From NCBI RefSeq assembly GCF_900115185.1, contig NZ_FOVN01000001.1:868001-932000 (forward strand): a stretch of DNA of 64,000 nt. Direction: 5' to 3'. The DNA is from Algorimicrobium echini (GTDB lineage: Bacteria > Bacteroidota > Bacteroidia > Flavobacteriales > Flavobacteriaceae). The translations under genes and the position numbers were made by a program. Positions 5,284 through 46,735 of this stretch are shown here, one piece after another. The notes under the pieces were generated by a model. The model had not been told where the DNA came from, made no database searches, and was given only the letters and a program-made list of their open reading frames with translations. Numbering within the stretch: the first letter of the stretch is position 1; each line of letters opens with the position of its first letter.

Positions 5284-6948
5284 ATGAACCCATATTTACG
5301 ATTTAATAGACATAGAAATTCCGTTTTTGGTTTACCATTAACGGTTGTTTTTTCTTGTATCTTATTTCTTTTCTCGGCGGTTTCTGTAGCGCAAGTAAAA
5401 TCGGCTGCCAATGTTTCTGAAATTAAAATTGGCGAAGAAATTACCTTTCAAATTGAAGTAGAAGCAGATACTACAGATTTAGTTGTGTTTCCTGAAGGCG
5501 CTACATTTTTACCTTTAGAAATTATAGAGTCTTACGCAATTGATACCACTAAAAATGCGGCAAAATTCAATTTGATAAAAAAATACGGATTAACCCAATT
5601 CGACTCTGGAGCCTACACCATTCCAAGACAAAAAATTATTATAAACAATCAAACGCTTTTTACAGATTCGCTTAAAGTTTTTGTGAATCCTGTTGAGGTT
5701 GATACTACCCAACAAGGATTATATGGTATAAAACCTATTATTTCAGTTGAAAAAAGTAGTAGTAATTGGTGGAAAACATTACTGATTGTTTTACTAGCTA
5801 TTGCTTTAGTAGCAGCTTTATTATATTGGTTTGTTTGGCGTAAAAAACCACTAACTGAAGAAGAAAAAATAGCTTTATTACCTCCTTACGATCGTGCAAA
5901 ACTAGCCTTGAAACAGTTGGATGAGCATCGATATCTAGAGGAAGATGCCTATAAAGAATACTATTCTGAATTAACCCTAGCCATCCGTCGTTATTTAGAT
6001 GAAAAGGTCTATGATCACGCTTTAGAAAGTACCACCGATGAGCTTATTTCCCGTTTACGATTATTAAAAGACGGCAATCAAATTGATTTAAGTCTGGAAA
6101 CCATTAAAAATCTAGAAAGTATTTTTAAACGTGCCGATTTAGTAAAATTCGCCAAATCAGCACCAGATAAAGAATTAGCCAAATTTGATAGAAAAACAAT
6201 TGATGAAGAAATAGATCATGTAAAAGAAGTTTTACCAGAACCAACAGAAGAAGAAAAACTGCTAGACGAACAATATAAGGAGGCTCAAGAGCGTAAAAAG
6301 AAACGCCGAAAAATAGTTATTTCTGCCTTGGTGGTTGTGGGGCTATTGGTAGCCACATTTGTTGGGTTTGGCTTAAAATATGGTTTCAATTATGTAAAAG
6401 ACACCTTGCTGGGAAATAACAGTTTGGAATTATTAGAGGGCAATTGGGTACGCAGTGATTATGGTTTTCCACCCATTATAATATCAACACCTAAAGTTTT
6501 AAAACGGGTTGAAATAGATTCTGTTCAAAACAAAAATGCTCAAGTGGATTACACAACTTTTAATTATGGCAATTTAGGAAGTAACTTAAATATTACCTTA
6601 AATACGGCTACTTTAAAAAACCAGAAACCTGAAGATTCTATTAATTTAGTAGTAGTAGCTGAAAAAGCCATTCAGGATTTAGAAAACAAAGGTGTCACAA
6701 ATATCATTGTTAAAAACGAAAAATTTGTAACTCCAAATAATGCCGAAGGACTAAAAACTTTTGGTTATGCGCAATTCCCAATTGGAAGTTCAGATTCTTT
6801 TGTGGAAGGTGAATACATATTGTTGCATTTTACAACACAGAATATCATTCAGCAAATTATTATTATTTGGCAAAAAGATGATGAATATGCAGCTGAAATG
6901 GTTGAGCGTATTGAAAATTCCGTAGAACTAAAACCTGATATAGAATGA
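5284..6948 (+). CDS. BatD-like/DUF4381-type membrane protein of the Bat operon
   Basis: A protein of about 554 residues lying between the DUF58 gene and batA. It starts with an N-terminal hydrophobic segment ending near AVSVAQ (likely a signal peptide). A beta-rich periplasmic domain follows, then a TM helix near residues 170-188 (WWKTLLIVLLAIALVAALLY), a charged helical region (PPYDRAKLAL... as in DUF4381-like proteins), a second TM near 350-370 and a C-terminal domain of ~180 residues. I chose the ATG at 5284 over an in-frame TTG at 5269 that abuts the preceding stop. The stop overlaps the batA start as ATGA. Role inferred from context: a membrane partner of the MoxR/vWA complex. Confidence 0.75.
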   Translation: MNPYLRFNRHRNSVFGLPLTVVFSCILFLFSAVSVAQVKSAANVSEIKIGEEITFQIEVEADTTDLVVFPEGATFLPLEIIESYAIDTTKNAAKFNLIKKYGLTQFDSGAYTIPRQKIIINNQTLFTDSLKVFVNPVEVDTTQQGLYGIKPIISVEKSSSNWWKTLLIVLLAIALVAALLYWFVWRKKPLTEEEKIALLPPYDRAKLALKQLDEHRYLEEDAYKEYYSELTLAIRRYLDEKVYDHALESTTDELISRLRLLKDGNQIDLSLETIKNLESIFKRADLVKFAKSAPDKELAKFDRKTIDEEIDHVKEVLPEPTEEEKLLDEQYKEAQERKKKRRKIVISALVVVGLLVATFVGFGLKYGFNYVKDTLLGNNSLELLEGNWVRSDYGFPPIIISTPKVLKRVEIDSVQNKNAQVDYTTFNYGNLGSNLNITLNTATLKNQKPEDSINLVVVAEKAIQDLENKGVTNIIVKNEKFVTPNNAEGLKTFGYAQFPIGSSDSFVEGEYILLHFTTQNIIQQIIIIWQKDDEYAAEMVERIENSVELKPDIE

Positions 6949-44674: not shown

Positions 44675-45178
44675 ATGGGATTATTTTCATTTATTAAAAA
44701 TGCAGGTGCAAAAGTATTTGGTATCGGGAAAACCGAAGCAGAAGAAGCAGCCGAAGCAAAAGCCGATGCAGCAGCAGCCAAGCTAAAACGTGAGTCCGCA
44801 GCAGCAAGCCGAATGGAAGAAACGGTTTCCGATTTAAAACTGGAAGCTAAAAACTTACAAATAAAAATTGATGGTGATACCGCAACCATAACGGGAATGG
44901 CTTACGATCAAGCAACCCGTGAAAAAATTATATTAGTAGTAGGAAACTCCAACGGGATTGCTGTAGTTGACGACCAAATGACAGTTGAACATACTGAACC
45001 AGAAGCCCAATTTCATACCGTAGTTAGTGGTGATACATTAGGGAAAATAGCAAAGAAATTCTATGGGAATGCTATGAAATATCCAGTTATTTTTGAAGCC
45101 AACAAACCCATGTTAACTGACCCTGATAAAATTTATCCAGGTCAAGTATTGCGTATTCCTGCAGTGGATAAAGCATAA
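44675..45178 (+). CDS. BON and LysM domain protein (Kbp/YgaU type)
   Basis: A 167-residue protein. An Ala-rich acidic N-terminus is followed by a BON domain (about residues 55-105: LKLEAKNLQIKIDGDTATITGMAYDQ...) and a LysM domain at the C-terminus (HTVVSGDTLGKIAKKFYGNAMKYPVIFEANK, then IYPGQVLRIPA). The order matches the E. coli potassium-binding protein Kbp (YgaU), a cytoplasmic protein that senses K+. No signal peptide. An intrinsic terminator follows. Confidence 0.9.
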   Translation: MGLFSFIKNAGAKVFGIGKTEAEEAAEAKADAAAAKLKRESAAASRMEETVSDLKLEAKNLQIKIDGDTATITGMAYDQATREKIILVVGNSNGIAVVDDQMTVEHTEPEAQFHTVVSGDTLGKIAKKFYGNAMKYPVIFEANKPMLTDPDKIYPGQVLRIPAVDKA

Positions 45179-45242: not shown

Positions 45243-46124
45243 TTATTTTGTTCTTAATTTGATTAAATCACTTTCAGATAAAAACGTTCTGACTAAAGTA
45301 TAAAGATTTTGATTTGTATTACTGGTATCTTTTATTTTCATGTCTATTTTATAATCCATGTATGGTTCAGTAGGCACAAATTCTATCAAACTATCTTTAG
45401 AACTTAAATTCCATTCAGTAGATTTTAGTAAAAATATAACATTACAGCCTTTCGCCTCAATGACATTTTCACTTGTAGTATTAAAATTCACTATGGAATT
45501 CGATGTTTTGGAAGCTCTTTGCCATGTAACTTTTATCATCTCGTTTTCATATTCATGGATCGTTTCGTTTGGAAAAAATAAACCAATGGATAGAAGTGCC
45601 ATTAAAACAAAATTCCATGCAGCATGAAATATAATCGATTTCAATAAATTGAAGTTAATACAAATCCAAATAGAGAAGAAAGTAAAGGCAAACCTGAAAA
45701 GAAATCCTTGTAAGGATGAAATGGTAAAAAATTGTTCCAAATCTAAATGAAAAAGAGAAAACAATAATGCATTTCCAACATACAAACTGATTACTAATGT
45801 GTTTGGTTTTCTATAAAAGCTTACTATTAATAATGCTATATATATTATCATTAATGTTTTGAGTAATAAACTTTCAGAAAGTAGTAGAAAAACAAATAAA
45901 CCAATAATAGAAATTATTCTTATACTTTTAGATTTATTAAAACCTCCTCTAAAACTTAATTCTTCTGTAATAGGTGCAACAAATATGGCAATACATAAAA
46001 ACAAAAAGTATGGAACTTTAAAGTATTCACTTCCTGTAAAGTAGTCATGAGATGAAGGGGACACTAATAGATATAAGGAGGTCATTAACCCAAGAGCAAG
46101 AATAACAACACCTAGGGTCAACAA
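45243..46124 (-). CDS. CPBP-family intramembrane protease
   Basis: A CPBP (Abi/CAAX-like) membrane protein of about 290 residues with several TM helices. The catalytic EExxxR motif is present as ITEELSFRGG, and later histidines appear in FSLFHLD and IIFHAAWNF. CPBP proteases act in peptide maturation, bacteriocin immunity or protein processing. The open frame continues upstream to 46178 with no ATG; the first usable start is TTG at 46124. The frame overlaps the stop of the decayed lipoprotein gene upstream. The C-terminal ~90 residues are a soluble domain of unknown type. Confidence 0.8.
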   Translation of the reverse strand: MLTLGVVILALGLMTSLYLLVSPSSHDYFTGSEYFKVPYFLFLCIAIFVAPITEELSFRGGFNKSKSIRIISIIGLFVFLLLSESLLLKTLMIIYIALLIVSFYRKPNTLVISLYVGNALLFSLFHLDLEQFFTISSLQGFLFRFAFTFFSIWICINFNLLKSIIFHAAWNFVLMALLSIGLFFPNETIHEYENEMIKVTWQRASKTSNSIVNFNTTSENVIEAKGCNVIFLLKSTEWNLSSKDSLIEFVPTEPYMDYKIDMKIKDTSNTNQNLYTLVRTFLSESDLIKLRTK

Positions 46125-46171
46125 CCAGTTATATTTATATTTTAATATTAACTTATTCAGAAAATAAAATT

Positions 46172-46651
46172 TTAATTTTTAACACAGCTTAAGGAACAAT
46201 CATCTCCGCCCCACCATGAAGAAGATGCCTGCATATTTGTCGGAGTTCCATTCGCTGCCAAACATGCTTGCATTTGAGCGAGACAAGCTTGCGTCATATC
46301 CATTGTTGGTCCAGAAGTAACTATATCAACAACAACCGCTACAACTTCAAGTAAAACTGTAGCACAACGCCAACAAAATTTAGCGTCTCCTTGCAAATTT
46401 GTGAAACCCATATCTACTCCTTGACTGAAACGTGAAATTTTGTTATCAATGCTATTAATACGATATTCTACTCCGTCATTTGTTTATATAGAATTATTAC
46501 TACCTTTATATAGGTTATTGATTTCTGTGGGATTACTTTTTGAATGATTATATGAATTTTCCGTAATTGGATTGTTATCATTCGAACAACTAATTAGGGT
46601 TAAAGACATAACAGCAATAGTAAGAGCGAATTTAATTTTTACTTGTTTTAT
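46172..46651 (-). pseudogene. Decayed lipoprotein gene: ATA at the start position and in-frame TAA
   Basis: Reading minus from 46651, one continuous frame gives a lipoprotein signal peptide (ATA at the expected start, then KQVKIKFALTIAVMSLTLISC with lipobox LISC) and a Ser/Asn linker. A TAA at 46484-46486 interrupts it. The same frame then runs 102 more codons to 46172 with natural-looking sequence (NDGVEYRINSIDNKISRFSQGVDM, then KFCWRCATVLLEVVAVVVDIV, and CSLSCVKN at the end). The intact protein would have about 159 residues. Both changes are single-base explainable. An internal ATG at 46411, with AAGGAG just before it, could still make the last 79 residues. Confidence 0.75.
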
Positions 46652-46735
46652 TTGTTTTTGATTTTAGGTTAAGTATTAGACTTGGGTTTTTTGTTATAAA
46701 TAAAACAAATAAAACAAATAAAACAAAATTGGAAT
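46643..46735. repeat. A/T-rich inverted and tandem repeats upstream of the decayed lipoprotein gene
   Basis: TTGTTTTATTTGTTTTT at 46643-46659 is the reverse complement of the region around 46700-46735, where AAATAAAACA is repeated three times in tandem. Together they could fold into a hairpin with a ~40-nt loop just upstream of the lipoprotein gene. Confidence 0.5.

Follow-up and report, generated by a model that had tools for sequence, protein, structure and literature searches.

A lipoprotein gene in the window (the whole 64,000-nucleotide stretch of Algorimicrobium echini DNA analysed here) is, judged from its sequence, very probably a pseudogene, which appears to have lost its function recently. 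The downstream gene, which encodes a CPBP (Rce1-like) membrane protein, is open and constrained relative to that of Bizionia algoritergicola, without visible decay. Among related loci, lipoprotein loss beside a kept CPBP gene is one-sided and recurrent. The pattern in the window fits, without proving, a lost antibacterial weapon with a kept self-protection gene.

The lipoprotein and CPBP genes of the window

The lipoprotein coding region of the window occupies a single minus-strand frame. An ATA codon is found at the start position (46651–46649) and is followed by KQVKIKFALTIAVMSLTLISC-SNDNN..., a TAA codon in the linker (46486–46484) and 103 sense codons that lead to a stop codon at 46174–46172. 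The signal-peptide coding stretch (46586–46651) was aligned to an intact gene and ends in the lipobox LISC, with its Cys codon at 46588–46586. The post-stop part (46172–46483) contains CWRC and CSLSC sequences and encodes a Cys-rich tail with the pattern C-x6-C ... W-x5-C-x3-C. An internal ATG at 46411 opens a listed ORF of 79 codons (46172–46411), a putative cryptic product. The initial annotation had correctly placed the ATA, the signal peptide, the TAA and the Cys-rich end in one frame but had counted 102 codons after the TAA. Upstream of the dead gene, at 46699–46727, a 9-nt A-rich unit (ataaaacaa) is repeated head to tail approximately three times.

In a search over 99 genomes, the window's own genome included, a strong match was obtained in one other genome, that of a congener, with identities of 89% and 100% in its two blocks; three other rows, all weak (E of 0.03–0.07), were dropped. 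The congener, B. algoritergicola APA-1 (NZ_VSKL01000001.1), carries the lipoprotein gene as one open frame of 226 codons with an ATG start (L007, 5766–6446), directly upstream of the CPBP gene. The intact gene encodes a signal peptide with a lipobox, a middle region and a four-Cys tail. The two halves of the window frame correspond to one ORF in five genes of four other genomes, rather than to genes that are always separate. In the DNA alignment, the window ATA aligns with the B. algoritergicola ATG and the window TAA aligns with a sense codon, and a 201-nt in-frame segment of the B. algoritergicola gene is absent from the window at the 46414/46415 junction. The post-stop part of the dead frame is 92% identical to the intact gene, and the dead-frame pattern is thus not due to chance. 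These three lesions, one more than the initial annotation had described, are the grounds on which the window gene is taken as a pseudogene. A sequencing error, which had been listed as an alternative, or an assembly error would have had to corrupt a single gene three times, at the start codon, at the TAA and by spurious removal of 201 nt in frame, although the genome has a completeness rating of 99.99%. Such an error is hardly credible and is rejected as the sole cause, because miscalled bases do not account for a 201-nt difference that keeps the frame.

The CPBP gene (45243–46124, minus strand) uses a TTG or other non-ATG start. Its open frame reaches from 46172 or beyond to 45243 and lacks an ATG near the start, in line with the initial annotation, which had noted no ATG in the open frame; the first listed start, TTG at 46124, yields a 293-residue protein. 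The DNA from the lipoprotein stop codon to this TTG is identical in the window and B. algoritergicola, and TTG is likewise the listed start of the CPBP gene in Mangrovimonas G298 and ST2L15. The CPBP genes of the second B. algoritergicola pair (locus B) and of two Mesonia genomes (G058 and HuA40) start with ATG. A -1 frameshift was considered by eye as a route of CPBP expression and was dropped. The CPBP/Rce1-like motifs EExxxR, FxxxH and HxxxN are present in the CPBP proteins of the window, B. algoritergicola loci A and B, G298 and ST2L15, and the arginine of EExxxR is replaced by aspartate in Mesonia G058 and HuA40. The PF02517 scores of the window (21.5 bits), G298 (20.5 bits) and ST2L15 (21.3 bits) lie just under the Pfam gathering score of 22.4 bits, and those of B. 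algoritergicola loci A (31.1 bits) and B (32.5 bits) and Mesonia G058 (27.3 bits) lie above it. The CPBP protein also contains an extra C-terminal region of ∼120 residues. Its AlphaFold2 model is of low confidence (mean pLDDT of 53), and Foldseek returned no match at E ≤ 0.001.

Between the window and B. algoritergicola, dN/dS is 0.15 for the CPBP gene and 0.41 for the lipoprotein gene, and the direct contrast gives a p value of 0.056. Nonsynonymous changes are fewer than the neutral expectation in the CPBP gene (p = 4e-14), where much of the divergence may predate the lipoprotein loss, and also in the lipoprotein gene (p = 0.02), as a recent loss would leave such a pattern. Changes were polarised with Mangrovimonas G298 as the outgroup, for the lipoprotein only in the part that follows G298's own TAA. 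All five polarised amino acid changes in the lipoprotein fall on the window branch and none on the B. algoritergicola branch (13 unpolarised; binomial p = 0.06), and one of the five is the loss of the proline in CxPC. The CPBP changes are divided 7:7 between the two branches (14 unpolarised). The recent loss of function proposed in the initial annotation is supported by the intact congener copy and by this five-to-none distribution. Its view of a decaying two-gene locus holds for the dead lipoprotein gene and fails for the open and constrained CPBP gene, whose decay is rejected because the ATG-less start is conserved; the dN/dS value and the 7:7 distribution point the same way.

Synonymous divergence between the two Bizionia is 0.13 for the lipoprotein gene and 0.32 for the CPBP gene, compared with 0.50–0.94 in five neighbouring genes, and reaches 0.54 in the C-terminal CPBP part alone. 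Between the two Mesonia, the value is 0.023 for the CPBP gene, and two neighbouring genes reach 0.12 and 0.18. The lower divergence of the modules would be accounted for by recent interspecies exchange. Divergence from B. algoritergicola is also low relative to the surroundings at window positions 45813–46412 (0.02–0.08 per 60-nt block), a stretch that suggests exchange between species.

Lipoprotein loss in related genomes

Thirteen CPBP places were compared, which are partly non-independent, as several have a site or a genus in common: one site is occupied in both the window and B. algoritergicola locus A, and another, beside a paaZ-like aldehyde-dehydrogenase/MaoC gene, in Mesonia G058 and HuA40. 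A partial CPBP-like match with a TGA in G058 C5 was left outside this set. The counts follow the orphan-immunity pattern, in which a putative weapon is lost and its partner is kept: the lipoprotein gene is intact at 3 of the 13 places, and the CPBP gene is open at 12. The lipoprotein gene is intact and the CPBP gene is open at B. algoritergicola loci A and B and in Mesonia G058. At nine places, the window included, an open CPBP gene is found with a broken or absent lipoprotein gene. In Mangrovimonas G298, the lipoprotein ATG is, by eye, out of frame with the lipobox and is followed by a TAA in the linker, and in Mangrovimonas ST2L15, the lipoprotein gene is absent. The HuA40 gene, which is intact in the sister Mesonia, is deleted except for a five-codon start located 4 nt before the CPBP ATG. 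In Mesonia G817 C22, an ACG codon at the start position and a linker TAA precede 179 open codons, and a second broken lipoprotein gene also has ACG at its start position. In Mesonia G817 C25, the gene has ATA at the start position and is truncated. Mesonia G812, G818 and G813 encode more distant CPBPs with no adjoining lipoprotein ORF; the search for lipoprotein traces beside these three genes covered G813 only. At the remaining place, in B. myxarmorum, both genes are lost, with only the lipoprotein tail left and stops in the CPBP gene. The window and G817 C22 genes thus share two kinds of lesion: the start position is occupied by a near-cognate codon, and the linker contains a TAA.

Because lipoprotein loss recurs on one side with the CPBP gene open, an orphan-immunity reading is proposed. 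The lipoprotein would act as an antibacterial protein of the bacteriocin type, against which the CPBP protein would confer self-immunity; the window strain would have dropped the weapon and retained the shield, as in orphan immunity genes. Judged from the sequences, an antibacterial lipoprotein lost from the window strain with its CPBP immunity protein kept has about an even chance of being the correct description. The CPBP constraint and the polarised changes (5:0 for the lipoprotein, 7:7 for CPBP) are in line with it. Several observations argue against it. The substitution contrast between the two genes reaches only p = 0.056, and the places compared are partly non-independent. The B. myxarmorum locus lost the lipoprotein and has stops in the CPBP gene too, and three Mesonia CPBPs have no lipoprotein ORF at their side. 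The kept HuA40 CPBP gene is indistinguishable from neutral relative to its sister (10 nonsynonymous and 4 synonymous changes, p = 0.27), and the EExxxR arginine is missing in both Mesonia proteins. The putative weapon is not always accompanied by this CPBP partner, since G385 and G300 carry an intact lipoprotein gene and no CPBP of the window subfamily at E ≤ 1e-5, although they may have a partner of another kind.

The main rival to the weapon-and-shield reading casts the CPBP protein as a protease that matures or processes the lipoprotein, or the C-terminal tail of the latter; the lipoprotein would be a signal, an adhesin or a peptide precursor, and the CPBP gene would persist only through the recency of the loss. 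The tight co-directional pairing, with overlapping genes in Mesonia G058, the mostly kept catalytic motifs and the near-neutral HuA40 gene are consistent with this model, as is the ability of CAAX proteases to process peptides noted in the available portion of PMC9298176. The nine open CPBP genes without an intact lipoprotein, compared with three intact pairs over the 13 places, argue against it, as do the missing arginine in the Mesonia pair and the intact lipoproteins without a window-subfamily CPBP, and the model is considered rather unlikely.

The positions of the lesions bear on a further alternative, in which an internal start still gives rise to the C-terminal part (79 codons in the window), which is kept through coupled translation of the CPBP gene. 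The four frame-breaking lesions of the window, G298 and G817 C22 genes are all confined to the first quarter of the gene and leave the remainder open, an arrangement with a chance of ∼0.004 by our own arithmetic, although the pattern was noticed afterwards and in a small sample. Together with the ATG-less start of the Bizionia locus A CPBP genes and the five-codon mini-ORF retained in HuA40, this bias makes it possible that the 3' part of the lipoprotein gene must stay translated for CPBP expression. The window tail, however, has changed on its own branch, with the proline of CxPC lost, which speaks against a working C-terminal product, and this alternative is regarded as highly improbable.

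Intact lipoprotein genes are found at B. algoritergicola loci A and B, in an uncultured Mesonia (G058), and in G385 and G300. Six tails, that of the broken G298 gene included, contain four Cys residues and one Trp residue in the arrangement C-x5 to x7-C ... W-x5 or x6-C-x3-C. A profile of this C-terminal tail matches 5 of 397 sampled family genomes, the window genome included, and a middle-region profile matches 5 of 269 genomes, one of which, a weak new row for G160 (2.7e-4), was not counted. Counts obtained with a single protein and a full-length profile (53 and 56 of 397 genomes) were dropped, because many rows cover the signal-peptide end only. In the phylum sample, profile A3 at E ≤ 1e-6 matches 1 of 395 genomes, the window genome itself and no other. 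The protein that follows the TAA in G817 C22 resembles the middle region of the family (hhalign E of 5e-4, probability of 32%) and differs in the tail. A plasmid search with the second B. algoritergicola CPBP and lipoprotein gave no match.

The rarity of the family in the tail-profile sample and its patchy distribution within Bizionia, in a small sample, would also agree with a variable accessory locus that encodes an ordinary surface lipoprotein, with the lipoprotein loss and the CPBP neighbour as functionally unrelated hitchhikers. This explanation is judged distinctly improbable: the two genes are paired at different sites in Bizionia (two loci), Mangrovimonas and Mesonia, and the CPBP gene is under constraint.

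Searches for known families and folds argue against the weapon-and-shield reading insofar as the lipoprotein has no match to a known toxin family or fold. Neither the window fragment nor the five intact lipoproteins score above the cut-off in Pfam or NCBIfam, and the best E value in a sequence search against solved structures is only 0.11. The lipoprotein model is of low confidence (mean pLDDT of 50) and has no Foldseek match at E ≤ 0.001; no claim on the fold is therefore made for the predicted structures. The NCBIfam BLB8/JUQZ-1 family NF053514, whose JUQZ-1 bacteriocin is a Brevibacillus protein according to the source text available, was rejected at 13.8 bits over residues 2–70 versus a curated score of 40 bits.

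Module sites and repeated gene 3' ends

In the window, B. algoritergicola and Mangrovimonas G298, the module lies directly behind a LysM-domain gene (44675–45178 of the window, plus strand). In B. algoritergicola and G298, a second copy of the final ∼55–60 nt of the LysM gene lies beyond the module, and the two repeats begin within ∼10 nt of the same place. No such 3'-end repeat was found in the window, at B. algoritergicola locus B or in ST2L15. Bizionia G001, G002, G004 and G005 have no module at the LysM site, and the gene end and intergenic stretch of G001 are 91% identical over 283 nt to the sequence beyond the B. algoritergicola module. Two genes adjoin the B. algoritergicola module at L007 6981–9428, one of which is MBOAT-like, and both are missing at that place in the window.

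The modules of Mesonia G058 and HuA40 are located behind the aldehyde-dehydrogenase/MaoC gene, whose 3' end is repeated. In Mesonia G817 C22, the module follows an RNase H gene, and the last 46 nt of that gene are present in three copies, the original included. The copies separate a 57-codon ORF, the CPBP–lipoprotein pair, and an 87-codon ORF with the second broken lipoprotein gene, so that short ORFs, hydrophobic by eye, the CPBP gene, two ACG-start broken lipoprotein genes and RNase H 3'-end copies form one row (L121, 3144–5750). In total, copies of the 3' end of the upstream gene bracket the module in five genomes of three genera. In a control scan for a copy of each gene's 3' end within 3.1 kb downstream, such copies were observed for 0 of 57 window genes and for 6 of 151 genes in 18 loci. 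Five of the six directly precede a CPBP module, with two of these five at a single Mesonia site, and the sixth and its copy enclose a different lipoprotein gene. The same scan detected no 3'-end repeat beside G812, G818 or G813.

The sixth gene, a methyltransferase gene of Mesonia G817 C25 (L120, 5938–7458), precedes a 184-residue Cys-containing lipoprotein (6100–6654) without a Pfam match, and a 28-nt copy of its 3' end lies beyond that lipoprotein. The CPBP gene of G813 follows a methyltransferase gene similar to that of L120.

Recombination at the 3' end of a host gene, in this case the LysM gene, may be the way in which the modules are acquired and lost. A broader proposal, offered tentatively and short of being probable, is that marine Flavobacteriaceae possess an undescribed family of antibacterial lipoproteins whose immunity partners are CPBP proteins or small membrane proteins of other kinds. 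Their recombinase-less modules would insert after the 3' ends of housekeeping genes and leave a 3'-end copy; the lipoproteins would be silenced repeatedly in comparable ways (a near-cognate codon in place of the start together with a linker stop, or deletion), and the partners would pile up in arrays. If true, a family of secreted lipoprotein weapons would be added in marine Flavobacteriaceae, and a natural series of intact, half-dead, deleted and partner-only loci would be available to address why immunity outlives the weapon. The duplicated gene 3' ends would also offer a means of finding such modules computationally.

Comparison with known systems

Searches of the open-licence literature yielded no such CPBP–lipoprotein locus for Flavobacteriaceae or Bizionia bacteriocins and nothing that links a glutamic-type intramembrane CPBP with C-terminal sorting. 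NCBIfam family NF052640 (CPBP_M949_0222) exhibits weak similarity to the CPBP proteins studied here (E of 2e-5 to 2e-3), which are not members of it, with 18 to 25 bits versus a cut-off of 220.

According to the available portion of PMC9298176, CAAX proteases have repeatedly been tied to bacteriocin immunity and also to processing, and CPBP/Abi proteins of bacteriocin loci are described there with reference to Kjos et al. 2010; the CAAX protease studied in that work had no immunity role, which counts against the weapon-and-shield reading. The window CPBP resembles these CPBP/Abi proteins (Rce1-like, PF02517) as a membrane protein with EExxxR and FxxxH motifs that is encoded beside a putative secreted antibacterial protein. 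It differs from the cases in the available text, which come from Gram-positive bacteria and extend to roles as processing enzymes, receptors and regulators, in its pairing with a Flavobacteriaceae lipoprotein and in its additional C-terminal region.

The closest parallel to the proposed loss is provided by the type VI secretion system (T6SS) of Vibrio cholerae, in which, as described in the accessible part of Kirchberger et al. 2017 (PMC5361080), effector genes are replaced or lost, immunity genes are kept, and modules are added by recombination. Unlike in V. cholerae, no T6SS gene appears in the ORF lists around the modules studied here, the sites are LysM, aldehyde-dehydrogenase/MaoC and RNase H genes, and the putative weapon carries a lipoprotein signal. 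As in the orphan-immunity arrays reported in that part of the paper, a putative weapon is lost and its membrane partner is kept, and the modules stand beside a conserved gene, apparently through recombination, with a row of leftover partners.
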